A stretch of 64,000 bases of DNA from NCBI GenBank assembly GCA_020055645.1, contig CM034547.1, positions 1,922,001 to 1,986,000 on the forward strand. The letters are read 5' to 3'. The position numbers and the translations under genes are program-made. Below, in pieces: positions 302-37,939 of this stretch. The stretch's first letter is position 1. The number at the start of each line of letters is the position of its first letter. Under the pieces are notes generated by a model. That model worked only from the letters and a program-made list of their open reading frames with translations, did no database searches and was not told the origin of the DNA. The DNA comes from Tomocerus qinae (taxonomy: Eukaryota > Arthropoda > Collembola > Entomobryomorpha > Tomoceridae).

Positions 302-806
302 CAAGAAGCATAAACTGTAGTTATGGTAGCCTTTATCTTCTCCTGTATAAGGAGAGTCCACTAGCGAATTTCCCTATGTTGATTTATGAAGATTTATAAG
401 GGACTTTTTTCTGAAAAAATCCCCTCATTTCTAGCCAACACTAATGCATGGTTTGCAGGCAATATCTTTATAAAATGATCGAATGGTAATGTTTTGCTGT
501 GGTCTAATAATTTTGGCGAAGTGAAGAACAATACGATGGGTAAATCGTGTATTATCTGCAAAAGTCGGTCGGATGCCTTTACAGTGTTTCATCAGTTTCC
601 TAAAAAATGTTCAAACATGAGAATGAAATGGATTAAGATTGCATCAGGTGGAAGAACTAAGCCATTCCATCCAGAAAATTTTGGCATCTGCGGAAAACAT
701 TTTGAAGAAGGTTCATACAAATCTGGTTTAGGACCTAAGAGAATGTTACGGGAATGCGCTATCCCTACATTATTCCTAAACAAAAATTCAGTTCACAATA
801 AACGAT
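302..806 (+). repeat. Left terminal inverted repeat of the P-like element
   Basis: Reverse complement of 3270-3817 with scattered substitutions and one ~45-bp gap; the missing segment corresponds to roughly 3557-3602 of the right arm. The two arms stop matching just after the codons for the last residues of the THAP region (…CACAATAAACG). The arm is far longer than the ~31-bp terminal repeat of the Drosophila P element. Confidence 0.9.
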
Positions 807-808
807 AA
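536..808 (+). CDS. Orphan THAP zinc-finger domain in the left arm
   Basis: An open 90-residue frame starting at the ATG at 536; an earlier in-frame ATG at 494 is possible but adds no known domain. It has the C2CH THAP signature: Cys5 and Cys8 (CIIC), the invariant Trp32 in RMKWIK, Pro in PFHPENF, then CGKH as the last Cys/His pair, and a closing AIPTLF box, the AVPTIF-like motif. THAP domains bind DNA; in P elements the domain sits at the N terminus of transposase and recognises sites near the ends. Here it is not followed by transposase on its own strand: a stop falls at 806-808 and the next body runs the other way. It could make a stand-alone DNA-binding peptide, for instance a repressor, but no expression can be inferred. 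Confidence 0.7.
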   Translation: MGKSCIICKSRSDAFTVFHQFPKKCSNMRMKWIKIASGGRTKPFHPENFGICGKHFEEGSYKSGLGPKRMLRECAIPTLFLNKNSVHNKR

Positions 809-935
809 ATTCCGATGTTATTACTTAGCGGAATAATAAACATAATAAATAAACAATATTCATTCACAAAGTAATAACAAATTGGACACTAATACTATAA
901 TCCTAGTATTAATTAGAAATCATTATCAATATATA

Positions 936-3539
936 TCAGGCCAGCAAAGACTCAGTTGCCTCCACCCGTACAGATAAAACATTTTGCTGATGTATCTCTT
1001 TCCTTCTTTCCCACGACTTTCGCTGCCTTTCCAACTTTTCTTCTTTCAACTCACGGTTGATCCAAGAAATTCTTATTTTAGTTCTAGTTCGCACGTAAAG
1101 AGAAATAACTTCTTTTGGAATGTCGGGAAAAATATTGATTAATGTAGAACTCAAATTCTTTACAACCCCAAAAGACTTGTTAAAGGTATGTCGACCAATG
1201 CCCCGGTGGTATTCGATAAAATATTCTTCAAACTTTTTGAAGGTGGCTAACCACAAATTCGATGGTTCTGTCAGTCCTCCTCTTGAAAGGAAACGGACCC
1301 ATCCGCCATTACTTGCTGCCATTTGTTCTTCTTGTTTTGTTAGCTCTGGATACTTTTCAGTGACACATCTTGCGATGTATCCAGCGACATATTCTAGTCC
1401 TCCTTCTTCACACTTTTCCTTTGCAAAATGATGAATATTATCCCAATGTTCATCGATTTGAACGTAATTGTTAATTGTCGTAAGTTTCGTATTAAGAGAA
1501 TCATCAATATTGTCTTCACGGTCTCGCTTGTCCGCATATTTCATAGCAGTTAGAATTCGGACGCTTAGAAATTCCTGCACTGGTGATACAATATCTGCTG
1601 CAACGGGAGAGTTATTCTTATAATGGAAATTCCACCCAAATGCTAATGATTTAGCTCTTCGGATAACTTCGACTGGTGTAAGTTTTAAACTGAAACCACC
1701 AAGGCCCCGTAAAGTAGAAAAACTATTTTCTACAAAATCTTGATTAAGGTTTTTTGTCATTAAATACGTAGCATTCACTGGTAACTTCTGAAGATCCTTA
1801 AAGAGAAGTTTTCATGACTTAATGGAAATAATAAGATATTTCTGCCACGGTTGTAAGGCCTTTTCCCGTTTCTTTTTGGCACTTGGATCAGTAGGAGGTC
1901 CTACTTGTAGTTTTAAAATTGTCTCTTGAACATTTTCAAGCAGTTTGTTTTGAGTTTCCAAATGGAAGCCATATGGACTTTTATATGGATTGACATCACA
2001 ATGTGCAACACGCGTATTCATTAAGTCGGCCAAATTGTTAATCATCAAGAAAAATTCAGATTGTTTTTGGTATTTTTCATTTATATACACCATAGCCCTT
2101 GCTGCCGATTCGGAAAATACGTGCCAAGCCTTTGAAACATTTTGTCTTGCTTGACCTTTAACATTTAGATGTTCTTCAGTTAACTTGTGATATATAGGTA
2201 ACTCTCCTTTGTTGTATTTTAGTATTTCCTTTAATGGTTCTGTTGTAATAATAGTGCCATCTTCAAGTATAAAACCGTCATCAACAAGGTGATTTCGAAT
2301 CAGTTTTATCAGGTGTGGGAAGTCAGCAAAAACGAAAACCCGTGAACCTGTGACTGGGTTTGAAAAATATACATTATCAATATTGATGTTAAGAGCTTTC
2401 CACAACCCCTGATGTTTTGTGCCACAATCACAGCAGATTCCTCGTACATTAATTCCACAATTTTCAACTGCTGTAATAATGGAGTTAAGTTTTTCTGGAG
2501 TCAAAGTTTCGTCGAAGTTATAGTAGATCAACTGTTTCCAATCAAAACAGATCCCCCTGATGTACACTCCAAGGACGTGCTTGGAAGGTCCAAGAATTTT
2601 GTCGCTCTTTTCATCGTAACAAATCAAATCGCTAATTTCAGCCTCATCAAATGCCAAAATGCATTGTTTTTCCATCGGGGTAGCATTGAAAAACTCCGCT
2701 TTCAAGACGTTTAGAACTGGATCGAGCAAACCAGGATGTATATCTATTGATGAAACATTTCTTTTTAATGTAGTTAATGATGGTATTGGCCAATTACAAC
2801 TTTCTCTTAAGTATTGGTAAGCGCTACTTGACACAGTAATCAAGGCCACGGCTTTAGCAATATCTTCATTACTCCAGTGCACGAATTTCTTTTCAGTGCT
2901 GCTAAGTCGGTCAATTTGTTTTTCTGACAAAATTTTTGATACGGCAGACTGCAGAGTTTCCAGATTTTTAGTTGCTAGTTGAAGTTTATCCAATGATTCT
3001 TTAATTTTCATTTGACCTGCTGCCAATTGTACTCTCAGGCCGTCAATAATTTCAGTTTTCCTAGCCAGTTGTGTACATAGATTGTCATTGCTTTTCTTTA
3101 AACTTGCAATTTCGCCTTCAAGTTTTTGTAGATAAGACAAAGCTTCGGCTGTGTTTGTGTATTCGATACCTACGTATATAATATTATCCAAATTCTGTAG
3201 TGTCAAGTAATTTAATTAATATTTATACACACTATTTTTTAGTACACGGTTCCTTCGGGTATATTTCTTACGTTTATTGTGAACTGAATGTTTGTTTAGG
3301 AATAATGTAGGGATAGCGCATTCCCGTAACATCCTCTTAGGTCCTAAACCAGATTTGTATGAATCTTCTTCAAAATGTTTTCCGCAGATGCCAAAATTTT
3401 CCGGATGGAATGGCTTAGTTCTTCCACCTGATGCAATCTTAATTCATTTCATTCTCATGTTTGAACATTTTTTAGGAAACTGATGAAATACTGTAAAGGC
3501 ATCCGACCGACTTTTGCAGATAATACACGATTTACCCAT
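936..3539 (-). pseudogene. P-element-like transposase, two in-frame TGA codons
   Basis: Minus-strand gene. Exon 1 (3539 down to about 3270) is a THAP domain; a short intron ends at the acceptor TACGTAG and exon 2 starts at 3169 in matching phase. Exon 2 opens with a leucine-rich coiled coil (about 60 residues), then the RNase H-like transposase. Likely acidic catalytic positions are Asp in LAFDEAEI, Asp in GICCDCGTKHQ and Glu in NQDFVENSFSTLRG, the usual D-D-E order of P transposases. The frame is open from 3169 to 936 except for TGA at 1812-1814; sequence on both sides stays in the same frame. A second TGA lies in the THAP exon at 3444-3446, where the left arm has TGG for the invariant Trp. 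The C terminus ends at 936. Unless these TGA codons are bypassed, no full transposase is made. No expression evidence is available. Confidence 0.85.
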
Positions 3540-3817
3540 CGTATTGTTCTTCACTTCGCGGAAGATATTTTAATCGATTCTTCGTTAAAAAATTTCTTTT
3601 GGCCAAAATTATTAGACAATAGCAAAACATTACCATTCGATCATTTTATAATGATATTGCCTGCAAACCATGCATTATTTTTGGCTAGAAATGAGGGGAT
3701 TTTTTCAGAAAAAAGTCCCTTATAAATCTTCAGAAATCAACATAGGGAAATTCGCTAGTGGACTCTCCTTATACAGGAGAAGATAAATGCTACCATAACT
3801 ACAGTTTATGCTTCTTG
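3270..3817 (-). repeat. Right terminal inverted repeat of the P-like element
   Basis: Inverted partner of 302-806. On the minus strand it carries the first exon of the transposase (THAP domain), ending at a donor CGTAAG about base 3270. Codon 32, TGG in the left arm, is TGA here (3444-3446). Confidence 0.9.
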
Positions 3818-3825
3818 GCCCCGCC
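3818..3825. repeat. Target site duplication, right (8 bp)
   Basis: GCCCCGCC directly follows the terminus GCTTCTTG and matches 294-301 exactly. Confidence 0.9.
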
Positions 3826-4943: not shown

Positions 4944-6210
4944 AAAACCTACAGCAAGCCGTAACAGAAGCTCGCCTGAGTAAAGGGGACCCTGTGTACA
5001 TTTTTGGTAGAAAATAGAAGAAATAGATCTATTTTGATTGTTAAAATGAAAAGTGTATAATAGGCAAATTTAAGTTATCCAAACAAACAAAAATTTAAAG
5101 TGTGGTAGTGTATTAACTATTAAATCAACAGAAAATCAAAATTGATTAATGTTGTCTATCAAAATCAACAAAAAATCAAAATTGATTAATATTGAATATC
5201 AAAATCAAAAGAAAATCAAAATTAATTAATATTGAGTATCAAAATCAGAAGAAAATCAAAATTAATTAATATTGAGTATCAAAATCAAAAGAAAATCAAA
5301 ATTAATTAATATTGAGTATCAAAATCAAAAGAAAATCAAAATTAATTAATATTGAGTATCAAAATCAAAAGAAAATCAAAATTAATTAATATTAAGTATC
5401 AAAATCAGAAGAAAATCAAAATAAGTTAATATTGAGTATCAAAATTAATTAATATTGAGTATCAAAATCAAAAGATAGTCCAAATTAATATTGAGTATCA
5501 AAATCAAAAGATAGTCCAAATTAATATTGAGTATCAAAATCAAAAGATAGTCCAAATTAATATTGAGTATCAAAATCAGAAGAAAATCAAAATTTATTAA
5601 TATTGAGTATCATAATCAAAAGAAAATCAAAATTTATTATTATTGACTATCAAATCAAAAGAAAATTAAAATTGATTGATTTTGAGTACAAAATCAAGTC
5701 AAATCACTATTGTATAGTAATATTGACTATCAAAATGAAAAGATGTTAAAAATTGTAAATTTGACTATAAAATTGAATATAAATCCAAAATAGATTTATT
5801 TCTGTCCTCTAATAGTAGTATTTCGGTTTCATTTCCTTTATTATTAAATCTCAAATTTGGTAGAAGCGGAGTGAAATATTTTATACTATCTCGCTAACAA
5901 TTTATAGGAAACGCCTTTGAACTTTTTAATGACCATTTAATGCCAAATTTTCACTTTGACTATCAAAATGAAGACAAAGTGAGCGCGCGTTATCTTAGCA
6001 ACCAATTTACCGATTTACCCCCAATTCAATAGGGATCGTCAGTGGTCCCATAGGCATTGTTTTTGCCAAGTTTGGTCAATATCTGTCATTTCTTTCGATA
6101 GTTATCGTGGGGACGGACGGACGGATGGACGGACGTACGGACGGACGGACGGACGGACGGACGTACGGACAGACTGTGCGGTTCTATAATCTGCCTTATT
6201 CGGGCGAGCT
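4944..6210 (+). mobile_element. HINE/Helentron-like non-autonomous element, copy A
   Basis: The element reads: 5' block (ACCTACAGCAAGCCGTAACAG, AGCTCGCCTGAGTAAAGG); an array of degenerate 40-bp units (about 5120-5700); a unique 3' region with 'gacaaagtgagcgcgcg' and 'ggcattgtttttgccaag'; a GGAC/GTAC tetranucleotide run (about 6110-6172); and the end …TTCGGGCGAGCT. The terminal GCGAGCT is the inverse of AGCTCGC near the 5' end, so it has subterminal inverted repeats. Central tandem repeats plus subterminal inverted repeats are the layout of HINEs. No coding region is present. The assignment is inferred from architecture, not from a known family sequence. Confidence 0.6.
5120..5700 (+). repeat. 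Degenerate 40-bp tandem array (copy A)
   Basis: Units follow the pattern 'attgagtatcaaaatcaaaa' + 'gaaaatcaaaattaattaat', 40 bp, with shortened variants such as 'gatagtccaaattaat' near 5465-5570. Confidence 0.8.
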
Positions 6211-8178
6211 AAAACCTACAGCAAGCCGTAACAGAAGCTCGCCTGATTAAAGGTTAACGTGTACACATTTTGGTAGACGAAAAGTACTCGCACGTAGCAC
6301 AAAACCGAGCGTACGGATTTTGATCAAACTTTCAGATTTGGGTGTTTATGTATGTAGCTATGATTAATGTTGACTATGAAAATCAACAGAAAATCAAAGT
6401 TGATTTATGTTGACTATGAAAATCAACAGATAATCAAAGTTGATTAATGTTGACTATGAAATCAACAGAAAATCAAAATTGATTAATGTTGACTATGAAA
6501 ATCAACAGAAAATCAAAGTTCATTAGTGTTGACTATGGAAATCAACAGAAAATCAAAATTGACTAATTTTGAATATGAAAATCAACAGAAAATCCAAATT
6601 GATTAATGTTGACAATGAAAATCAATAGAAAATCAAAATTGATTAATATTGACTATCAAAATTGATTAATATTGACTATCAAAATTAATACAAAATCAAA
6701 ATATTAATATCGACTATCAATTTCAATGCATAAGAAAATATATTAATATTGACTATCAAAGTCAATACATAATAAAAATATATTAATATTGACTATCAAA
6801 GTCAATACATAATGAAAATATATTAATATTGACTATCAAAGTCAATACATAATGAAAATGTATTAATATTGACTATCAAAGTCAATACATAATGAAAATA
6901 TATTAATATTGACTATCAAAGTCAATACATAATAAAAATATATTAATATTGACTATCAAAGTCAATACATAATGAAAATATATTAATATTGACTATCAAA
7001 GTCAATACATAATGAAAATATATTAATATTGACTATCAAAGTCAATACATAATGAAAATATATTAATATTGACTATCAAAGTCAATACATAATGAAAATA
7101 TATTAATATTGACTATCAAAGTCAATACATAATGAAAATATATTAATATTGACTATCAAAGTCAATACATAATAAAAATATATTAATATTGACTATCAAA
7201 GTCAATACATAATGAAAATATATTAATATTGACTATCAAAGTCAATACATAATGAAAATATATTAATATTGACTATCAAAGTCAATACATAATGAAAATA
7301 TATTAATATTGACTATCAAAGTCAATACATAATGAAAATATATTAATATTGACTATCAAAGTCAATACATAATGAAAATATATTAATATTGACTATCAAA
7401 GTCAATACATAATGAAAATATATTAATATTGACTATTAAAATCAATATAAAATCAAAATAGATTAATATTGACTATTAAAATCAATATAAAATCAAAATA
7501 GATTAATATTGACTATTAAAATCAATATAAAATCAAAATAGATTAATTTTCACTATTAAAATCAACAGAAAATCAACATAGATTAACATTGACTGTGAAA
7601 ATCAACAGAAAATCAAAATAGATTGATACTGACTATTAAAATAAACAAAAAATCAAAATTGACTAACATTGAGTATCAAAATAAACAAAAAATCAAAGTT
7701 AATTAATATTAGAGTATCAAAATCGGTTAATATTGACTATCATAATGAAAAGTAATTCGAAAAATATAAATTTGACTATCAATTTGCATATAAATGCGAA
7801 ATAGATTTATTTCCGTCATATAAAAGGTATTTTCCGGTTTTTTTTACTTTGTTATAAAATCTTAAAGTTGGTCGAAGCGGCATTTAATATTTTGTACTAT
7901 CCCGCTAACAATCCATAGGAAGCACATTTGAACTTTTAATGTCCATTTAATGCCAAATTTTCACGTTGACTATTAAAATGAAGACAAAGTGAGCGCGCGG
8001 CATCTCATCAACCTATGGACCAATTTGGCCCATTTTCAATAGGCTTTGTCACAGGTCCATAGGCAATGTTTTTGCCAAGTTTAGTTGAAATCCATCAATG
8101 TCTTCAAAATTTATCGTACGACGGACGGACGGACGGACAGACTATGCGATTCTATAAGCTCGCTTTCTCAGGCGAGCT
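6211..8178 (+). mobile_element. HINE-like element, copy B, with expanded minisatellite
   Basis: Begins AAAACCTACAGCAAGCCGTAACAGAAGCTCGCCTG directly after the 3' end of copy A (head to tail) and ends …TCAGGCGAGCT at 8178. The 3' unique region (about 7740-8178) is clearly homologous to that of copy A, including 'tgagcgcgcggcatctcatcaac' and a (GGAC)n run. Its 40-bp array is much longer, about 1.35 kb. Confidence 0.6.
6360..7740 (+). repeat. 40-bp minisatellite, about 30 units in three sub-arrays (copy B)
   Basis: Three successive variants share the 40-bp period. About 6360-6660 is 'tgttgactatgaaaatcaac' + 'agaaaatcaaagttgattaa'. About 6700-7430 is a near-identical block of about 18 units, 'tattaatattgactatcaaa' + 'gtcaatacataatgaaaata'. 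About 7430-7740 is 'attgactattaaaatcaata' type units. The middle block is the most homogeneous and so the most recently amplified. Each unit contains a short inverted repeat, ATTGACT…AGTCAAT. Confidence 0.9.
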
Positions 8179-9468
8179 AAAATGGAAATTTGACTATAAA
8201 ATTGAATAAAAAGCCAAAATAGATTTTTTCCATCGTCTAATAGTTATTTTCCGGTTTAATTTGCTTTATTATAAAATCTCAAATTTTGTAGAAGCGGATT
8301 GAAAAATTTTATACTATCACGCTAACAATTTATAGGAAACGCCATTGAACTTGTTTTAATTGGATTTATGAGAGATGAAAAAAAGTTGAATAAATCCAAA
8401 TGATTTCCTCCAACCAGAAACGCTGCATTCAATCAACTATAGTTTTTCATTGCTCAATCTAATTTATTACTGCAAGCGGCTTTCGTACAGACATCATCAG
8501 GCTTAAAATTAGAGAACAACAATGAGCAAAATTAGAATTAGTTACTTATTTGATACATTATGAGAAGTAGAACATATTCTATATTCTATACATTAATTGA
8601 TATGGGTGTATAATAAAAAATGTAGAATTAAGTATAGAGAACCATCAGTAATCACCTACCTATGTTGTGTGGAGTCGAGAGCAGAAAATTATATAGTAAT
8701 AATAATAATTTTAATTTAATTTTAGTAAGATTACATTATTCAATGTTTATAAAAACTAATGACAGTCTTAAGAACTGACAACAAAATTGTATAATGTGCG
8801 GGATAACATTTGGGCGCGTAGCACCATAGATGTAAGAAAGTATCATGATTCCCCATGAGTTGTCACATACTGAGATATACTGTTTACTTTTGAGTAGCTT
8901 AAGATTAGACTAATTGATTGAATAGCATTCTTGAATTTAACATCTGTACATTTACTCAATTCACTTATGATATATTTTAGAGTTAGATTGTTATAGTTGT
9001 AAATAGAGTTGTAAAAAGGCAATACAAAATACACGTTATTTGATACATATGAATCTGTTTGTGAATATAATTCTGTGTTTATATTAAGTTTACATAATAT
9101 CTCAGGGTTGTGAATAGACAGATTTTTTATGAGTAACGAAAAAAAAAACTGGTTGGAGGAAATCATTTGGATTTATTCAACTTTTTTTCATCTCTCATAA
9201 ATCCAATTAAAACAAATGTCCATTTAATGCCAAATTTTCACTTTGACTATCAAAATGAAGACAAAGTGAGCGCGCGGTATCTCAGCAACCAATGGACCGA
9301 TTTACCCCCAATTCAATAGGGATCGTCAGTGGTCCATAGGCATTGTTTTTGCCAAGTTTGGTCAATATCCATCATTGCTTTCGAAAGTTATCGTGGCGAC
9401 GGGCGTACGGACGTACAGACGTACGGACAGACTGTGTGGTTCTATAAGCTCGCTTACCCAGGCGAGCT
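8179..9468 (+). mobile_element. HINE-like element, copy C, 5' truncated and split by an insertion
   Basis: Starts inside the 3' unique region ('ggaaatttgactataaaattgaa') and lacks the 5' block and the array. It is interrupted at 8360-9206 by another element and resumes with 'gtccatttaatgccaaattttcac', ending …TTACCCAGGCGAGCT at 9468. The two halves join in the same order as copies A and B. Confidence 0.6.
8360..9206 (-). mobile_element. 847-bp TTAA-flanked element with 58-bp perfect inverted ends
   Basis: The ends 'ttggatttatgagagatg' … 'catctctcataaatccaa' form a perfect 58-bp inverted repeat (8360-8417 and 9149-9206), flanked by TTAA at 8356-8359 and 9207-9210. It interrupts HINE copy C. 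On the minus strand, 9166-8843 is an open frame of 107 codons (YFVLPFYNSIYNYN, LTLKYIISELSKC) of unknown function. Downstream on the same strand lies a CTGATGA…GAAA motif (8500-8481) resembling part of a hammerhead core. Two readings are possible: a TTAA DNA transposon derivative, or a rearranged Penelope-like fragment with inverted ends. I cannot decide between them. Confidence 0.6.
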
Positions 9469-10087
9469 AAAACTCAATCTTTTTCAATTGCTTTTGTATT
9501 TCATAGTTATTATTATTGTACTTTGATTTTATATTGATTTTCATAGTTTATATTAATCAACTTTGATTTTCTTTTGATGTTGTTACACAATAGTAATAAA
9601 CTTTGATTTTCTGTTAATTTAAATACTTAGTATTAATTAATTTTAATTTTCTGTTGATTTTGATGGTCAGCATCAATCTATTTTGATTTTTCTGATTTTA
9701 ATAATCAATATTTATCAATTTAGATTTTCTGTTAGCTTCAATAATCAATGAAATTAATTTTGATTTTCTGTGGGTTTTGATAATCAATATTAATTAATTT
9801 TGATTTCCTGTGGATTTTGATAATCAATAACAATAAATTTTGTTTTTCTGTTGATTTTAATTCTCACTGTAAATCAATTTTGAATTTCTGTTTATGTTGA
9901 TACTCAATATTGATTTGTTTTTACCTTTTGTTGATTTTTATTTTGAGCTATGATCAGTATTGATCTAATTTGACTTACTTTTCATTTTAATAATCAAAAT
10001 AAATTTATTTCTACTATTATTCTACCTAAAATGTGCACACGGTTCCCTTTTACTCAGGCGAGCTTCTGTTACGGCTTGCTGTAGGTT
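9469..10087 (-). mobile_element. HINE-like element, copy E (minus strand, 3' truncated)
   Basis: Degenerate 40-bp units read on the minus strand (about 9490-9960), followed by the inverted 5' block 'ttttactcaggcgagcttctgttacggcttgctgtaggttttt' ending near 10087. No 3' unique region is present. Confidence 0.55.
9490..9960 (-). repeat. Degenerate 40-bp tandem array (copy E)
   Basis: Minus-strand version of the family unit ('ttttgattttctgttgattttgataatcaatattaa' on the plus strand), well decayed. Confidence 0.7.
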
Positions 10088-10189
10088 TTTGACATCCGGT
10101 TACTGCATACACTTGCGTTCAAGAGACAGTGACGATACCAAGTGACGATTGGACAACCGTACCTACTGACAACATCCCGGTCCATATAC

Positions 10190-10812
10190 TAATACGACAA
10201 TTTTCATAGTCAACATTAATCAATTTTGAATTTCGGTTGATTTTCATAGCCAACATTAATCAATTTTGAATTTCGGTTGATTTTCATAGTCAACATTAAT
10301 CAATTTTGAATTTCGGTTTATTTTCATAGTCAACATTAATCAATTTTGAATTTCGGTTGATTTTCATAGTCAACATTAATCAATTTTGAATTTCGGTTGA
10401 TTTTCATAGTCAACATTAATCAATTTTGAATTTCGGTTGATTTTCATAGTCAACATTAATCAATTTTGATTTTCTGTTGATTTTCATAGTAAACATTAAT
10501 CAATTTTGATTTTCTGTTGATTTTCATAGTCAACATTAATCCATTTTGATTTTCTGTTGATTTTCAGTCAACAATTATCAATTTTGATTGTATGTTGATT
10601 TTTCAAGTGATATAGCTTCGTTTCCCTATAATATCAATGTCTGAATTTTTAATATGTCGTAGCTATATATATATAATGACTCAGTTCTAAAAATTTGATC
10701 AAAATCCGTACTCTCGGTTTTCTGTTACGTGCGAGTACTTTTCGTCTACCAAAATGTGTACACGGCAACCTTTACTCAGGCGAGCTTCTGTTACGGCTTG
10801 CTGTAGGTTTTA
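10190..10812 (-). mobile_element. HINE-like element, copy F (minus strand, 3' truncated)
   Basis: Nine or so tidy 40-bp units (10195-10570) lead into the inverted 5' block: 'cgtacttttcgtctaccaaaatgtgtacacgg', 'ctttactcaggcgagcttctgttacggcttgctgtaggtttt'. It shares the 160-bp 5' region with copies 0 and B. Confidence 0.55.
10195..10575 (-). repeat. 40-bp minisatellite, about 9 units (copy F)
   Basis: Repeated plus-strand unit 'ttttcatagtcaacattaat' + 'caattttgaatttcggttga'. The first seven units are almost identical; the last two carry 'gattttctg' in place of 'gaatttcgg'. Confidence 0.9.
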
Positions 10813-12733: not shown

Positions 12734-13425
12734 AATGTAAAAAATGATTTACATGTATTTTGATAGTCCTTTGAGTTTTTCAAATCGTATATACCGGCCG
12801 CTTAACAGTTGTCTAGTATTGGGGATTCAGGATCACTTTGATCGTATGTTATAACACATAGCATAGAAAGGATACAGCAAAAAATTTGTTCAGGAGGTAT
12901 CTGTAACCAATACATTTCTATGGTAATTGCCAGTTTAACATGTGAAGGGTCTGTCCGCCCGTACTGGCTCTTGTAAAAGGGATTTTGATATCATCACTAG
13001 GCTGTTTCCTGCTGTGTGAAAAACAAGGAAATTTCTGATCCTCTTTCTTGACACGTTTTCGACAATTTTGCAGATTTTAATTATGCGATAAGTAATGATA
13101 ATTGAATCCCTTAGACGAATGACCTGTAAACTCAAATCGTAGATAAATTAGAAAAATTTTAATAATTTAATCCTTGACAACAAACAAATAAAACACCCGA
13201 AATCACTTGCGCAATTTGTCCAGCCAAACAAAACAACAAAAAATTATCAGTCCCTCTCTGGATATTAAAATTTGTTATTGCGGGCTGAATTTAGATAGCG
13301 TTTATAAGGGATTTTTTACTAATTTATTCCCAAATAACCAACATAAATGCAGAACGATTACCAGGATATTGGAATGGGACGGACGATCAATGGTGCAGTA
13401 TTGTAGCAAAGGTAGAGGTACAATA

Positions 13426-13502
13426 GGGACTTTTCTCAGAAAAAATCCCTTATAAATCTTCAGAAATCTACATAGCAAAATTCGCTAGTGGACTCTCCTT
13501 AT
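13426..13502 (-). repeat. Relic of a P-like terminal inverted repeat
   Basis: The sequence 'ttctcagaaaaaatccct' through 'ttcgctagtggactctcctt' matches the right arm of the P-like element near 3700-3775 with a few differences. It shows that another P-family copy once sat inside the element at 12797-15862. Confidence 0.7.
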
Positions 13503-14444
13503 ATACAATTATACAGCAATTATTATATTTTATCATCAATATTAAGCTCAATAAAATACCCTTAGGTTATGTCGAAAAAGAAGTAAAAAATAGTATGATG
13601 AGGAGGTAATGTGTTAGGTAGGATAATAGGCTATTTTGCAACTTTAGATTTTGGTCAAAATGGCGGAGATAGATTTACCTATTTCGTAAACCTTCTCAAC
13701 AGCAAAAGTAAAATGCCCAATCCATGGTGGAGCGCCCCACCCGGGTGGGGTAAAAAATAAAAGAATGGGGCGGGTGCACCCGCCCCATTCTTTTATTTGG
13801 TTCCCATCCCTTTTTTGTTTCTTTTTGGACCGTAATAATATAACAGCATAATAAAAGTATACCGTGGTAAGTATTATGCTGGAAAGTTAGATATTTATAT
13901 TATAGTTGAATGTCTTTGACTAAAATTCCCTCCTTCGCATCAATTTTGCCTACTAGTAATAAAAATGTAGCCAATCATAATATTATCACAATAATTTTTA
14001 TATTTGCATGGTCTGGGAATTCATGAGAAACTGGAGAAATCTTCCACTTTCAGCAATGGTGTTGGGTGTGCATTGTGTAGTGCAGTAGACTACAATAAGA
14101 ATGAGAAATTACTCCTGCGGTGGGAAGTCATATTTTGTGCTATTCATAGTCTTAATTACCATATTACATATCGCATAATTATTAAATCTGCAAAATTGTC
14201 GAAAACGTGTCAAGAAAGAGGATCAGAAATTTCCTTGTTTTTCACACAGCAGGAAACAGCCTAGTGATGATATCAAAATCCCTTTTACAAGAGCCAGTAC
14301 GGGCGGACAGACCCTTCACATGTTAAACTGGCAATTACCATAGAAATGTATTGGTTACAGATACCTTCTGAACAAATTTTTTGCTGTATCCTTTCTATGC
14401 TATGTGTTATAACATACGATCAAAGAGATCCTGAATCCCCAATA

Positions 14445-15839
14445 CTAAACCTATTATTTGCCTTTGGCAAATAGGTCTAGTCAGTTTGGCTTTAAAAAAT
14501 AGGGTCGGTTTTGCTCCTTCTCAAGGAGCAAATTATCCATGGTTATTATAACAAATAATAAATCACAACAGATTATTTCATTTCAAAATTTTATATGATT
14601 TTCATATACATTCACAAGGGGAATATTTATTGCAACATTTGACTTCTGCATTACAGTCGTTTGGTATCAGTATATATTATATACCTTTTAGCATATCATA
14701 TTACTACCACCATCCTAAGCTACACTTATCATATCATATGATACTACTCCACTCTATGAATAATAAACGTTATAATCATGTTATTGGATTAAATTTCAAA
14801 CTATGAAAACAACACAATAGAATAGATCATTTTAATTACTTGTTGTAAGGAGCAACTGTTGATACAACTACTATTATGTTGACACACAAAATAGACAGTA
14901 GGCATATTGAAAGGTTTAGTTATTGTAGATTTTTCGGTTATACATCATCAATATTGCAAGTCACTGCATAAAGAATTTATAAATTATAGAATTTCCGAAT
15001 AAATTATGGAATTTATTTTATTTATTTACCTACAATATTTTCCATTGTGTAAGAAAAGTGTGTAATGTCGATGTTCTGTGTGTAAATGGGACGCAAAAAG
15101 TGCTGCCGCTGAGAGTAGAAGAGCAAAATGGAAACACAGAGATAAATCCCTGTGTATGCAGCCATAGAGCCAATACATAAAACATAAAACAATACATATT
15201 GTCGTTCTGAAATTTTATAATTTATTCAGAAATTCTATAATTTATTCGGAAATTTTATAATTTATTCAGAAATTCTATAATTTATTCGGAAATTCTATAA
15301 TTTATAAATTCTTTATGCAGTGACTTGCAATATTGATGATGTATAACCGAAAAATCTACAATAACTAAACCTTTCAATATGCCTACTGTCTATTTTGTGT
15401 GTCAACATAATAGTAGTTGTATCAACAGTTGCTCCTTACAACAAGTAATTAAAATGATCTATTCTATTGTGTTGTTTTCATAGTTTGAAATTTAATCCAA
15501 TAACATGATTATAACGTTTATTATTCATAGAGTGGAGTAGTATCATATGATATGATAAGTGTAGCTTAGGATGGTGGTAGTAATATGATATGCTAAAAGG
15601 TATATAATATATACTGATACCAAACGACTGTAATGCAGAAGTCAAATGTTGCAATAAATATTCCCCTTGTGAATGTATATGAAAATCATATAAAATTTTG
15701 AAATGAAATAATCTGTTGTGATTTATTATTTGTTATAATAACCATGGATAATTTGCTCCTTGAGAAGGAGCAAAACCGACCCTATTTTTTAAAGCCAAAC
15801 TGACTAGACCTATTTGCCAAAGGCAAATAATAGGTTTAG
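14445..15839. mobile_element. 1.4-kb near-perfect palindromic element with TA duplication
   Basis: The ends are CTAAACCTATTATTTGCC and its exact inverse, flanked by TA (14443-14444 and 15840-15841). Each arm is about 560 bp; every stretch I compared was identical. The spacer (about 15006-15278) contains five 20-bp units 'ttcagaaattctataattta' at about 15210-15300. No transposase is present. The TA target duplication suggests mobilisation by a Tc1/mariner-type transposase. Transcription through it would give a very long double-stranded RNA hairpin. Confidence 0.85.
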
Positions 15840-16469
15840 TACTAGACAAGCTTAAGGACGCTGTTTACGTTGGTTGCTAACGAAAAAAATATAATTTCCA
15901 AAATTTAACCCGTCAATTGTCACATCCGAAACCCCATAGTTAACCTACCCGGCCATTCCACTACCTCAAGGGGAAGTTTTGGCAGTGCAATATTGATAAA
16001 CAAGATGCTATCAAGTCAATAACAAAATGAATTCCATGCGGCATAAACGGCCGTCTTATGGTATAATATTTGTAAATCTATTGGTTAGTACTTTGGTTAG
16101 TACTATATCACTATGACTACGGTGTCAATGCTTGTACTTGATGGCCGTTTATGTCACATGGACAATAGACATCTTTGATAGTAGTTATAACAACCATGGT
16201 TATAACTTAAACTTACAAGTATGAATGCATTGAAGCAAGATGCAAACAAAAAAGATTTTGTACTAAAGTATTTGTAATAACATTGCCAATGACGACAGGT
16301 GGAAATGCTACTATACAAGTCAGTATAGAAATCTTTATAATATAATACACTTCCCCGTTTCCTAGAAACTAATTTTTTGGAATTGCATTGACTTATGCCC
16401 TCGGTATTCCATCATCAGCAATTCGGGTCAACCTCCATGCATTTAAAATTCATCATAATATCTTTACAT

Positions 16470-27391: not shown

Positions 27392-27726
27392 ATATCACAT
27401 AAGTATATAATATATTGGTACTTATTTTGTTATATAATCCTGCATGTTGGAGACTGGAGAAGATGAATATCTGTTCCAGCAGAATTTATCTCCGTACCTA
27501 GAATATGATTGCTTATAGCAATAGTCAATTGGCCGAATTTCATGATTTACCCAAAAACAAGGCCCGAATAACTAGTGTAACTAAAGTTTTATTTTGAAGA
27601 GAATTTTAGAAACATGTTAATGAATTTTATTAAACAGTCCGTATAGTATAGATAATAGATATAGTAGTATTAAATAACTTTTGTAACAAGTAGTTGCATT
27701 ATAACGACAATCCTCTTTAGTGTTAA

Positions 27727-28507
27727 GGTTGGTTTTACGGGTTTCCATTACGTTTCGCAAAATCCTCCTACCTCCGTTACCACAAGGTGTACGAACCCAA
27801 ATTTGAAATTGAAGATTCTTAGACGTATTATCTATAGTGAACCTAGTCCTTAGAATTTTTTTAAACGGAAGTAAAGTAGTAGTTTTTGATTTTTGAAAAT
27901 AAAAAGTTGAGTCATTTTCTGCAAAATTTAATACATGCAAAAGAGCCTGTGAGACAGATACATTACATCGGTAGTCGTTACTAATGGTGTTTTTGAGAAA
28001 AGTAAGCTCTAGGTTCACTAGATATTTTTCTTCTCTTTCTTTTTAGTATCTTTACAAAATCCCCAAAAGTGACCCCAAAAGGTCAAATCACGATTTTCAG
28101 ATATTAGATGAGAGGATTGATATCATTGAGTAGGAAGTCACTCTATTACCAACAGCAAATAGGAAAACCTGAAATGAAAAGTTTTGCGGCTGATATTGAC
28201 ATGTGATTGCGCCTGCCAGTTATAATACCTAGAATTTTACAATATGCTTATTGCTTAGCATTATGTGTACGTAATAAAGTAATGAGCATAATGTTTTTGT
28301 AGCAAGGTGGTTTTAAATGTTCAATATTCTGTGGTATAAAAATTGATTCGTTTTGTGACACGGAACAAAACAGGATAGGTATTATACAATACTAACTACA
28401 CAACTACCTACTATAACTTGAAATTATGGGGAGTTCATGTTTTATGTTGCTCCACGGCGCAAGAGTGAGCAGTATTTAGTAAAAGATGAAAACCCGTAGA
28501 GCCAGCC
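27727..28507 (+). mobile_element. TTAA-flanked MITE, copy 1 (781 bp)
   Basis: Inverted ends GGTTGGTTTTACGGGTTT / AACCCGTAGAGCCAGCC, flanked by TTAA on both sides (27723-27726 and 28508-28511). It matches copy 2 at 37173-37935 in inverse orientation along its whole length with scattered changes. An inner inverted repeat, 'agtgaacctag … ctaggttcact', lies at about 27836-28018. The open frame at 27617-28018 (minus) falls across it and is not a gene. Confidence 0.8.
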
Positions 28508-28511
28508 TTAA

Positions 28512-29014
28512 GGAACGTTGGAAGACAAGAACCGCCTTGACTCAGTGAACAGCATTTTTGAATAGGATTTGATCTGCTTGAGCTGATTTTGATGTGATTC
28601 TGATTCGAATGATCGGTCATATGTGTGCCATGAATAAATTCTGTATTAATTCTCACGACATAAATAATCCACGCTACTGTATAGTAAATTAATTACTTGT
28701 TATTATGCTGTCTGCTATTGACTTTTACACGGAATTAGTTCTCAGAGCATGTAAATTAAAAGTGGGTACCTCAAAGCAAACCTCCCACCTATCATATCCA
28801 TTTTAGCATAGTCATACAATAAGAAATAGTCATGAATCTTCCTATCCCGCCAATGTTATAAAGTGTAAGACCGCACTTGTCCCTTTCAAACTTTCCTCGT
28901 CAGGGTTCGCGTGTCGCTAAGTTCCTGCATGAGTACATCAGAGTGGGAAAACAGTACACTGAGTACACACCACAAACACATTTTCAGGTCAGAGGTTGAC
29001 ATTTTGACAACAAA
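28512..29014. other. Upstream flank of the THAP9-like pseudogene
   Basis: No coding sequence. It presumably holds any promoter of the gene starting at 29015; no motif could be assigned. Confidence 0.4.
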
Positions 29015-32000
29015 ATGTCACCTTGTTTTGCACCCGGTTGTAAAAGTGGGTATAATAGCAAAACATCGCATTATTTTCGACCTCATAACAGTGTTGGAAA
29101 TCAGTGGAAGAAGATTTTGGCTAAAGTCAGATCAGACACTATTTTTGATTCTTCAAATCCGTCACATCGCTTGTGCTATTTACATTTCGAACCAAAATTA
29201 ATAGTGAAAGCAGATACAATGGTGATAAAAGGAGAAGTTGTAACCGTTCCAAGATTTCGATGGAAATTGGATCAAAGTGCTATTCCAACAATATTTCCAA
29301 ACTTACCAGCTTACAGACAGGAGAAGCTTCCACAAAAGAGAAAGCTACGAGACTGTGACAACAATTCTCAAAAGATTATCGAAAAGAAAAAGAAGGTCAA
29401 AACCCTAATGGAACTTTTTATGAATTGTGATATTGCTAATGAATATGATAGAATATGAATATGATAGATGAAGTTTGGGAGAATAATGAACCAAAAACAC
29501 AGTTCAGTAACCAAAATAGCACAGTCAAAAAGACGTTATACTACGTAAGTAACTCTGTTTCTTTTATATCAAAAACTAACGATTATTATTAGGAACTAAA
29601 TTTTTCATGACAACTATAACTACAAAAGAGGAACACTCATTAGCAAAAGATAATGTATAATAGTAAATAATAAAAGAAGTATTATGAATATAATTTTTTC
29701 CAGAATGCCAAAGAAAATCAGTTTAGAGCTTATTATGAAAAGGAAGACGTGACGGATTTGTTAATAGAACAGGAACAACTGCCTACAAAAGGGAGGTCTG
29801 CTTTGTCATACATAATTGCCGTTCTTAATCATTTCAAACAATTGCGTTGCTGCGAAGGTGTAAGTGGATTTGATAAAATTAAATCCATGAAGAATTCGAG
29901 TAGAAGAAATGGAGTTTGGTTTTCTAATAATTGTCAAAATATTGGATACTTTTCTGTGTGCGTACCTTGTAAATTGACGTTACCTGCCCTCCAAAAGAAG
30001 ACCTACCGTATCAAAAAGCAACCTCAAAAAACACCAGCAAAACATTTGCTCACCAAAAAGAAAAACATAGCATTTTATAAAAAGAGGCAATTACAGAAGA
30101 TCTTGCAGGCAAGCACAATTTTGAAAATGGAAACAAAACGGCTCAGCATTTCTTTAAATCACATTAAAATTGATAGCGTAGCCAAAGCGCTTTCTACCAA
30201 TTCCTCGATTCCAATCCCATTCCATCAAGCTGTAATACATGCATTAAAAATGACAAATTTAAAATCGTCGAAAGGAATGAGGTAAGAATTCTGGTATTTT
30301 TAAGATACAATTACTTTAATAAACACATTTTATTTAATGGTAATCTACAGTTCAATAATATAAATTTTACATTTATTATTTATTTTAGGTACGAAGTGAA
30401 TTGGTTGTTGGAATGTCTTTTATTAAAGATAAAGTCTCCAGCTGCTTATCGTCATATTAGAGAATCCAAACTCCTGCCTCTCCCTCATCCGAGAACACTC
30501 ACAAAATTAATATCTGGCCAACCCTGTGCATTCGGCTTCAATGAAATTGCTTTGAATTCTATTGAAAGGGAAATGACAGGCAAAGAAAGAAATTACCGCC
30601 AAGGGTCTTTAATTTTTGATGAAATACAATTACGAGAGTCTTTGGATTTCGACAAAGGGAAATTAAAGTTCGATGGCTTCATAGATTATGCTGAATATAG
30701 TGACGAACTATTAACTTCTCAAGAGAAGTCGCAATATGCAAATCATGCCTTGGTGTTAATGTATCGTCCACTAATTGGTGATTGGGTATGTTAAACTTAC
30801 CTATTTATACAGAACATGTCATTCTATAAATTCAAATCCAGCAGTAGATTTTAAAGTTTTGATTTGCTAATGATATTTATATTAGGTGCAGCCTATTGCA
30901 GCATTTAGTACCAAAGGGGCAGCCAAAGGAAATGCTCTTGAAAAAATAGTTTTGTCCGCAGTGGTCAAACTTGAAAGTATTGGAACGGAGGTAATCAGCA
31001 TTGTGTCGGATGGTGCAAAAACAAATAAAAGTTTTTGGAAACGCTTAGGAATACAAGGAAATATTGACCGCATTGTCAATAAGGTAAGCGGAAAAGATTT
31101 GTATTTTATATTATCGATATATTTATAATATTTATTTGATTTTGCATGTTTTTGATAGATTACTCATCCCTGTGATAGTGGAAGATACCTTTACTTTATT
31201 TGTGATGTACCCCATCTTTTTAAGTGCACTAGGAATCATTTTTCTAAATATGTGAAAGTCAAGGTGAAACATTCCAGAAATATATAAAATGTCAATCTTA
31301 GTAATGCAGATTTTAAATACTAAATTTTAATTGCAGTTCAATGGCAATGACATTAGTTACCATTTTTATGAGGAACTGTTGAAGGAGGATAATAATCGCT
31401 CCCCGGGACTACGAAAATGTCCAAAACTGACAAAGTCGCATATATCACCTAACAGTTTTGAAAAAATGTCCGTATCGCTGGCTACTCAGGTAATTCAATT
31501 TATTAGTTTACTATAATAAAATATGATATTATGCAGATATGTATGTGTACATATATATAACTTTTCAGCTATTTAGTCGGAGCAGTGCCACTGGCTTGGC
31601 GTTCTATAGAAAAATAAATATCTAGCCATTCCAAGGTTCCGAACCAACAGAAAAATTTACCCTTTGTCTTAATGACGTATTTGACGCATTGAACGGGAGA
31701 CTTCCTAACGAAGCTTTGCGATTGGGGTATAAAAAATTGGAAGTAAGTTAATATCATATTCCGCATTACACATTTAGGCCAGCTCTCATTTTTTAACAGT
31801 CAATAATGTTTTTAATGTAGACGTTAAAAGAATTTCTCGCAATTTTAAAGACGCCTCCCATGACAGACCCTGCGACAAAGAAATCTACTCCCCAAAATTC
31901 ATTTGCGAGTACCGAAACTTTAAACGCTTTGAGAATAACCATTTCCTCTGTGATTGAAATAAGTGAATACCTCATCCAAGACTTAAAGTTTGATTATGTT

Positions 32001-34290: not shown

Positions 34291-35374
34291 AAACAAAAGT
34301 TTTAGTTAAATGGACTTAAAGTAAAAATTTATATGAGTACAAATGAATATGTTACGTGGTATCGGTGCTTTCTAATACGTGTGTAAGTGTGTATGCGTGT
34401 TTGTGCTTAGTAGCTAAATGCTAATTTGTATTAGCATAATAATAATGTGGTTTGGAAATAAATGAACCAGATTTTTGGTGCATAGAGAGTAGACGACTTG
34501 TGTTATCTTATCTCCCAAAGCACCGACTCCGCTGTCTCTTGATAATAAAAGGATTTTTATATCTTCTGCACAAGTGGAAAATTACACCTGGGCATTACGT
34601 ACTGAATGCTATGCAAGTTTGACATATTATGCAACCGCGTATACGTATCCTCCTTTTGAAGTAACCTATAAATATACTTTGATGCATGGCATAACTATCT
34701 ACACTGGCTGACAGATATCATGCAACTAGCAACTAGACTAGACACGTAAACCAGAGTCAGTCATACAATCTTCTTCTGACTATGCCTAACTTGCCAATAC
34801 ACAAGTGTTACTCATTCAATCCAGGGTTGACGTCCCAAGGATGACTTCAGGAAGTGGGCAAATTCTTAACAGGTCAATGATAACAAATAATTTCAATTCG
34901 AAGTAATTAAAGTAGAAATATAAACAAATGCAAACATTACTACCAAATTGTATGAAAAATCTTACAAATCCCGACTACTACGAGTTCTTTTTAGTCACCA
35001 ATGTTTAGAGCTTTTTCCAATTCTCAACCATGCCAGCATATCATATTTTATGTATTGATATGATATTTAGGCTGTGCCAAAGTGCCAACAAGCATCAAAT
35101 TAATATACGTATATCCACCCGTTTATGTGTTAGTGAGATAGAAGTCAGTACAACAATCTATTATATGATGGATGATATTTACGGTATTTTCACCATTTTG
35201 CAATGTTGTGAGAGGGAGTGATATGACGCTTAACAATTAAACTGTAGCAAATAGTTTTTGCCGGTTTCATTAGTTACAAATTACAATAGCAATTTAAATG
35301 TATGGTGAGTGAAGTGGTTTGATTTTACTTTCGTCTGCACTAAAGATAGTTTTCAATCTAAATACTAATCCGAA
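34291..35374. other. Upstream region of the SLC35G-like gene
   Basis: No coding region or repeat was recognised. The open frame at 35030-35221 has no supporting context. Confidence 0.4.
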
Positions 35375-36853: not shown

Positions 36854-37172
36854 ATATTTCAATTTTACCGTTTTCATCATATTCTAAAACTAATATATTT
36901 CACGTAATTCGTACAGATCGTGGCAAATGAATGAACAAAAATTGGTTAATTTAAGTGACTAATTTTACAAATAATAGAACAGGTTATCTCCATTACATAG
37001 GTAGCCATTGTAAGCTATGAGATAGTCACTCTAACTAAAGCTATGAGTGTAGACATTTCCTGTTTGGTACCTTACTTTAATCTAAGTAATTGTATATGCC
37101 AAAAGAACTTAGATTCTAAAGAACCCTAGTAGCATGTAGACTATGTTTTCTAAAACTGTCCAATTTTATTAA

Positions 37173-37935
37173 GGCTGGCTCTATGGGTTTTCACCTTTTA
37201 CTAAATACTGCCCACTCTTGCGCCGTAGAGCAACATAAAACATGAACTCCCCATAATTTCATGTTATAGTAGGTAGTGTATTGTATAATACCTACTCTGT
37301 TTTGTTCCGTGTCACAAAATGAATCAATTTTTATACCACATAATATTGAACATTTAAAACCACCTTGTTACAAAAACATTATGCTCATTATTTTATTTTA
37401 TTACGTACACATTATGCTATAAGCACATTGTAACATTTTGGGTATTATAACTGGCAAGCGCAATCACAATTGAACAGCAAAACTTTTCATTTCAGGTTTT
37501 CCTATTTGCTGTTGGTAATAGAGTGACATCCTACTCAATGATATCAATCCTCTCATCTAATATCTGAAAATCGTGATTTGACCTTTTGGGGTCACTTTTG
37601 GGGATTTTGTAAAGATACTAAAAAGAAAGAGAAGAAAAATATCTAGTGAACCTAGAGCTTACTTTTCTCAATTACACCATTAGTAACGACTACCGATGTA
37701 ATGTATCTGTCTCACAGGCTCTTTTGCATGTATTAACTTTTGCAGAAAATGACTCAACTTTTTATTTTCAAAAATCAAAAAATACTATTTTACTTCCGTT
37801 TAAAAAAATTCTAAGGACTAGGTTCACTAGATAATAAGTCGAAGAATCTTCAATTTCAAATTTGGGTTCGTACACCTTGTGGTAATGGAGGTAGGAGGAT
37901 TTTGCGAAACGTAATGGAAACCCGTAAAACCAACC
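37173..37935 (-). mobile_element. TTAA-flanked MITE, copy 2 (763 bp)
   Basis: Inverse copy of 27727-28507, with ends GGCTGGCTCTATGGGTTT / AAACCCGTAAAACCAACC inside TTAA at 37169-37172 and 37936-37939. Some indels separate the copies, for example the spacing around 'ttattttattttattacg'. Confidence 0.8.
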
Positions 37936-37939
37936 TTAA

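Follow-up and report, generated by a model that had tools for sequence, protein, structure and literature searches.

A THAP domain inside both terminal inverted repeats of a P-like transposon in the collembolan Tomocerus qinae

In a 64-kb window of the Tomocerus qinae genome (positions 1,922,001 to 1,986,000 of contig CM034547.1, assembly GCA_020055645.1; all coordinates below are positions in this window in forward-strand numbering), a P-like transposon carries sequence for the DNA-binding THAP domain within both of its terminal inverted arms. This layout raises the question of how a second THAP copy came to lie at the far end of the element, and whether it serves the element, for example as a source of a repressor peptide, or is a consequence of how the ends were repaired. 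The comparison of related copies presented here favors the latter: the element probably belongs to a young cut-and-paste subfamily of the P superfamily, in which a terminal repeat was extended by gap repair and the arms later exchanged sequence by conversion, and the open left THAP frame needs no function. The extra THAP copy is thus more readily seen as a by-product of DNA repair than as a functioning repressor.

The element spans positions 302-3817, begins with CAAGAAGC, closes with GCTTCTTG and has a perfect GCCCCGCC duplication at both flanks. Its parts are:

294-301: 8-bp target-site duplication, left copy (GCCCCGCC)
302-804, forward strand: left inverted arm, 503 nt
536-808, forward strand: orphan THAP open frame, 90 codons plus TAA (PF05485, 42.1 bits)
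804-805: junction between recruited and old left-end sequence (AATAAACG, then ATAAATTCC), placed by alignment with the sister subfamily and alike in copies L012-L015
835-853, forward strand: three overlapping AATAAA motifs, 27-45 nt past the orphan THAP stop (motif match only)
936-3169, reverse strand: transposase body, predicted exon 2, with RNase H-like, GTP-binding insertion and C-terminal domains; TGA at 1812-1814
3170-3271, reverse strand: predicted 102-nt intron, C/GTAAGA ... TACGTAG/GT, in phase
3271-3817, reverse strand: right inverted arm, 547 nt
3272-3539, reverse strand: THAP exon joined to the transposase, predicted exon 1; TGA at 3444-3446
3818-3825: 8-bp target-site duplication, right copy (GCCCCGCC)

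The presence of a THAP domain in both arms, first noticed in a sequence-only reading of this locus, is confirmed, and the arm borders are refined to 302-804 and 3271-3817. The arms agree at 490 of 504 compared bases (substitutions only), and their ungapped blocks of 299 nt (97% complementarity) and 234 nt (94%) are far above chance. The left arm is the shorter one, as it lacks a 44-nt stretch upstream of the ATG. The outer ~140 nt of the left arm correspond to the terminal repeat that is common with the sister subfamily, and its inner ~360 nt were recruited from the right end. The coding part of the orphan frame (536-805) is followed by a stop codon (806-808) just outside the duplicated sequence. 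At a Pfam THAP cut-off of 23.9 bits, the 90 amino acid orphan frame is well recognized (PF05485, 42.1 bits), comparable to the THAP domain of the sister subfamily (41.4 bits) and to the left arm of another copy, L010 (40.4 bits), while the right-arm THAP fragment that follows the stop codon remains just below it (23.3 bits). A by-eye match also finds the eight THAP-conserved residues named in PMC4168063 (C2CH, P, W, F, P) in the orphan frame. In the body, the RNaseH_N domain (PF21787, 57.7 bits), the GTP-binding insertion (PF21788, 52.1 bits) and the P-element C-terminal domain (PF12596, 26.9 bits) exceed their cut-offs, and PF21789 (14.1 bits) and the helix-turn-helix (HTH) model PF12017 (16.4 bits) stay below theirs. 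With its 8-bp target duplication, N-terminal THAP domain and RNase H-like domain with GTP-binding insertion, the element has the traits of the P superfamily.

The search for further copies covered one assembly of 334 Mb in 115 contigs. THAP-bearing arms were found in five separate insertions, L001 (the window element), L002, L003, L004 and L010, and the layout is therefore no private rearrangement. The 8-bp target duplications of these five copies, here called subfamily A, are all perfect and all different (GCCCCGCC, GGTATAAT, ACTCAGAC, ACTACAAG and GGCGTGAC, in the order given). A query across the junction yielded nine spanning matches (25 of 25 candidates scored), namely the five subfamily A copies and the four copies L012-L015, referred to as C8/C42. 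The latter have the A-type junction and are counted as one insertion because their left flank is identical; their arms are ~93% identical to those of A by substitutions and so more diverged than the A copies, and their left THAP is broken by a 41-nt deletion.

The sister subfamily B (L005-L009 and L011) has a left repeat of ~140-155 bp, followed by a ~450-nt spacer without THAP and then the common body. A query with this left spacer matched nearly whole in six copies, and 14 further matches covered only 35-55 nt (20 of 20 candidates scored). Both subfamilies have the outer repeat, the right THAP exon and the predicted intron in common, the donor and acceptor of which are present in all ten aligned copies, splicing itself being a prediction from sequence. 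The bodies are 96-97% identical between A and B and 97.5-100% within A. Clear 8-bp duplications flank three of the six B copies (L005, L006 and L009), while L007 has a broken end, L008 has differing flanks and a single end was found for L011, which is split by insertions and was excluded from the alignments. Copies with short repeats and a single THAP, which the sequence-only reading had named as evidence against its proposal, thus do exist in the form of subfamily B, but they do not turn the window copy into an isolated case.

Because the ancestral subfamily B is preserved beside the derived subfamily A, the breakpoint is readable to the base. Subfamily A reads AATAAACG followed by ATAAATTCC, subfamily B reads GAGAA followed by ATAAATTCC, and the right arm continues with AATAAACGTAAGA. 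This implies that ~360 nt of the right end replaced the left spacer, with the extension stopping 1 nt beyond the predicted end of the THAP exon. Subfamily B is regarded as the ancestral state because distant P-like loci of the genome (L018, L020-L025 and L040) likewise have one detected THAP, located just inside arms of 207-285 bp. On this comparison, the layout of subfamily A is derived from a B-like state.

The left terminal repeat would accordingly have been lengthened once, when ~360 nt comprising the 5' leader and the THAP exon were copied from the right end over the old spacer, most likely during the repair of an excision gap. Owing to the ~140-bp terminal repeats, the broken left end would have been able to copy inwards along the right end, and the newly made strand would then have rejoined at a site without homology. 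We infer gap repair with template switching as the origin of the extended arm, for which the passages of PMC4168063 on Galileo, a P-superfamily element of Drosophila, provide a precedent. Afterwards the extended structure moved as a unit, as seen from its five sites with five target duplications. The broken transposase frames suggest that this movement probably occurred in trans, and bases that are derived in both arms point to a later exchange of sequence between the arms by conversion.

The right THAP frame is broken in all five subfamily A copies, and the left THAP frame is open in all five. In the window copy, the TGA at 3444-3446 occupies codon 32 of the right THAP, where the left arm has Trp, and the TGA at 1812-1814 is a second stop in the body. 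Codon 32 is TGA in four of the five A copies and TGG in L010, which has a frameshift later in the right THAP exon and an internal deletion. L003 has a body that is open over 757 codons, yet the codon-32 stop is present there as well. By the standard code, no subfamily A copy would therefore produce an unbroken THAP-transposase from its right arm, and the known A copies are, as predicted from their frames, not autonomous. The proposal that the right arm alone leads into the transposase body thus holds for the joining of the two parts, but not for an unbroken protein. In subfamily B, the right THAP is open in four of five aligned copies, the fifth (L006) having a 2-nt insertion. All eight key THAP residues are retained in the left frame of four of the five A copies; in L010, the first zinc cysteine (ligand C5) is gone.

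The distribution of derived bases indicates that the arms evolve partly in concert. At the THAP codon positions 14.3, 18.1, 29.3 and 38.1, both arms of L001-L004 carry the derived base, and the ancestral one is found in both arms of L010, in subfamily B and in C8/C42. L010 has a private base at arm position 21 in both arms, and at two upstream positions its left arm carries the right-arm state. In a tree of the THAP sequences, the left and right arms of L001-L004 group together with a support of 0.87, apart from L010, and in a tree of the upstream arm both L010 arms group. The junction is common to all copies, which places the duplication first and the homogenization of the arms later, and the disagreement of the trees between the arm parts makes conversion look patchy.

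A second P-like lineage offers an older case for comparison. The scan covered 39 P-like loci, which were picked for their similarity to the window element or for long open frames and not randomly, L012-L015 being omitted. Inverted arms of at least 55 nt flank the gene at 27 of these loci; the arms of L031 resemble arrays rather than ends, and a 28th locus, L019, has arms of only 31 nt. At seven loci the arms overlap the THAP exon, namely in the five A copies and in L033 (C2:62.26 Mb) and L047 (C5:1.54 Mb). The latter two are 99.6% identical over 3,866 bp and occupy different sites with different 9-nt direct repeats. The transposase of their family is 35% identical to that of subfamily A and 75% to that of L039, the arms of which stop short of the THAP. 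In L033 and L047 the arms reach 162 nt into the THAP exon, and in both the left THAP copy has a frameshift at its start and then stops. Two older members, ~72% identical and located at C1:65.73 Mb and C1:83.45 Mb (arms L048/L049 and L050/L051; only the arms were fetched), also have a broken left copy; a transposase match lies between the arms at C1:65.73 Mb, and at C1:83.45 Mb there is none among the matches listed. Thus, the left THAP of the second lineage is broken in four of four left arms read, and the right frame stays open in four of four, as far as it was read. The broken left arms do not amount to four independent events, given the near-identity of L033 and L047 and an insertion in the left copy that L048 has in common with L050. 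Judged from these reading frames, the left THAP of this lineage is evidently old, dead and not needed for spread. Taken together, the two lineages indicate that arm extension into the THAP exon occurred at least two independent times in one genome.

Several observations weigh against repair and conversion as a complete explanation. The recruited piece is gene-like: a leader and an ATG precede a complete THAP domain, and a stop codon follows, with AATAAA motifs no more than 45 nt away. In all five A copies it is the left frame that is open and the right one that is broken, the reverse of what is expected if the left copy were simply junk. The arm ends within 1 nt of the exon border, which repair alone does not predict, and clear microhomology was not seen at the junction left by the putative repair step. 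Furthermore, the upstream-arm tree does not group the left with the right arms of L001-L004, whose conversion signal is confined to the THAP exon, and the THAP tree places the L010 right arm with the C8/C42 copies (0.78) and not with the L010 left arm.

Nonetheless, conversion together with youth would suffice to account for a left THAP frame that is open but has no separate function. Left-specific replacements are found at codons 59 and 84 (all five copies) and at codons 5 and 16 (L010), and a silent change at codon 46 (two copies), which gives four replacement changes to one silent change. Random changes in the left THAP are expected to be replacements in ~72%, silent in 23% and stops in 5% of cases, i.e., replacement and silent changes at about 3 to 1. 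The chance of the left frame staying open after five to nine random substitutions is 0.58 to 0.81, and an open left frame is thus no evidence for function, while the sample of left-specific changes is too small to exclude one.

A THAP-only peptide may be made from the left arm, and the sequence-only reading had suggested that it competes with the transposase produced from the other arm. Such a built-in repressor would occupy the transposase sites at both ends and damp transposition, as the 66-kDa and KP proteins of Drosophila do; the passages of PMC7776569 and PMC4938643 on P elements describe repression by truncated THAP proteins. The open 90-codon frame with its own stop and AATAAA motifs, and the eight key residues preserved in four of five copies, are in line with this possibility. 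However, none of the five A copies has an unbroken transposase to repress, although other copies could supply one, and the left-specific changes stand at four replacements to one silent change, against about 3 to 1 at random. L010 is without the zinc ligand C5, and KP dimerizes, according to a title cited in PMC7776569, and has 207 amino acids, whereas the left peptide stops after the THAP domain, at codon 90, without a KP-like dimerization region; the coiled-coil-like start of the body (by eye) sits in predicted exon 2. Decay of the left THAP, which would contradict such a role, is apparent in the C8/C42 insertion and, for the second lineage, in all four left arms read; the five young A copies do not show it. 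The second lineage is therefore the best evidence against repression as a general explanation and says less on subfamily A. Overall, we consider the repressor unlikely, and the idea of a transposase from one arm and its antagonist from the other was not borne out by the broken right THAP in five of five copies and the four-to-one changes on the left.

A scan for the poly(A) motifs AATAAA and ATTAAA, which reports motif matches only, is relevant to a different proposal. On the transposase strand, neither motif follows the stop codon inside the element in any of the five A copies, while three of four scorable B copies have AATAAA at +205 to +209 after the stop, inside the spacer that was replaced in A. 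On the opposite strand, all five A copies have three AATAAA motifs within 45 nt past the left THAP stop; B also contains two of these three motifs and the stretch is rich in AT, so it was not made for a THAP gene. Loss of the spacer could hence have removed the transposase poly(A) signal, and antisense read-through of the left THAP could pair with the first exon and feed small-RNA silencing. Although the 299-nt arm block with its 97% complementarity would suit such a self-silencing hairpin, poly(A) signals are variable, only two motifs were scanned and one of the four scorable B copies is without a motif too, which makes this scenario quite improbable. Also unlikely is a combination of both proposals, in which leader, THAP exon and a lucky stop gave the element another gene, convergent with the first and encoding a free DNA-binding domain, at the cost of a transposase poly(A) signal. 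Conversion between the arms would then keep the THAP copies matched in binding specificity, and any element built this way would carry a self-updating competitor or a hairpin against its own transposase. The longer arm might instead be kept because it provides the left end with additional sites for transposase binding, an idea put forward for Galileo, the THAP domain of which binds several sites within the long repeats according to the passages of PMC3688188. Much of the recruited part is coding, however, and the sister subfamily moved with a repeat of only ~140-155 bp, so this appears highly improbable. Long inverted repeats can also be mis-assembled, but the recurrence of one structure and one junction at five separate sites, each with its own target duplication, leaves an assembly artefact or a single rearranged copy hardly any credence.

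Other candidate explanations were rejected. An RNA-mediated origin from a spliced template was suggested by the arm end near the exon end, but the extra 1 nt is part of the predicted intron, the copied piece also took in the terminal repeat and what lies upstream of the ATG, and the arm of the second lineage ends inside the THAP exon. An intron in the 5' leader as the cause of the 44-nt gap in the left arm lacks GT-AG borders, and the outer left arm folds no better than shuffled sequences (z 0.32), which speaks against a structured RNA. A search for relatives in viral contigs, which reaches close relatives only, returned two stretches that fit a pattern, neither of them a relative. Flipping of the interior by arm recombination left no sign in the aligned copies of this one assembly, as the left-arm gap and the right-only bases keep to their own arm.

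Among the closest known systems is Galileo, which also has long terminal repeats, a THAP-bearing P-type transposase and, according to the passages of PMC4168063, internal sequence, including transposase-coding sequence, recruited into both repeats. Coding sequence in P-type repeats was thus already known, and the view of P-type repeats as short and non-coding, which had made the window element seem exceptional, is too narrow. The arms of 503 and 547 nt match the very long terminal repeats of Galileo. A nearly complete Galileo copy has 69 bp of recruited coding sequence, and the D. willistoni copy 147 has >500 bp (PMC4168063, in part). As origins of structural variation in Galileo, its authors cite gap repair with template switching as well as ectopic recombination (passages of PMC4168063 and PMC3573991). 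In contrast to the window element, which recruited the 5' exon with the whole THAP and a complete small frame, Galileo recruits the 3' end of its gene (3700-3162 of the ORF 984-3698; same passages of PMC4168063), and its flanking sequences have 7 bp instead of 8 bp (PMC3573991, in part). The canonical P elements of Drosophila and Anopheles and zebrafish Pdre2 have the 8-bp duplication, the N-terminal THAP and the P-type transposase domains in common with the window element. The consulted passages give terminal repeats of 31 bp for Drosophila P (PMC7776569), 27-31 bp for Anopheles (PMC1562414) and 13 bp for Pdre2 (PMC10983969), and on these elements they do not mention a second THAP copy at the other end. 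KP and the 66-kDa protein are, similar to the left frame, truncated THAP-bearing P-element products, and both are able to repress, but KP arises by internal deletion and the 66-kDa protein by intron retention, whereas the left frame simply ends after the THAP domain. No title or beginning of an abstract was found that describes a THAP exon in each of the two terminal repeats, in a search with subscription journals and Repbase outside its coverage.

The genome is rich in P-like elements: with 150 of 257 candidates scored, the P-type RNase H domain is matched at least 157 times. Six P-type transposase matches ~1.36-1.4 kb apart at G000 C7:810510-817706 and four ~6.1 kb apart at G000 C2:729507-748276 represent tandem amplification. 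L027, L028 and similar places hold miniature elements of 321 bp, whose outer ends are almost the same and which have 8-bp duplications of their own, and miniature-like end matches of ~75-82% identity occur at at least 14 places. Elsewhere in the window, inverted repeats of 789 nt (27723-28511 and 37169-37939; 92.7% identical, 8.7 kb apart) enclose a transporter-like frame at 35369 and another P-like gene, whose THAP lies at 29000-29458 and whose RNase H-like parts extend to 32698. Two neighboring foldback-like elements, with arms of 572 nt (14443-15014 and 15270-15841; 100%) and 267 nt (12811-13077 and 14184-14450; 99%), have ends that overlap by 8 nt. Between the arms of the 12811-14450 foldback, a 78-nt stretch (13426-13503) matches the P-like element in its outer right arm at 87% identity and is perhaps a nested miniature element. 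Mutually inverted arrays of an AT-rich 40-nt tandem unit lie at 5017-7600 and 9441-10633, with the longest pairs ~83% complementary.

For the P superfamily, these data signify that a terminal repeat, as it lengthens, can take up an entire DNA-binding domain, and that concerted evolution of long inverted arms is possible. Since the left THAP copies differ in age, they also form a natural experiment on whether a free THAP domain is ever retained, to which the older ones have so far answered no.

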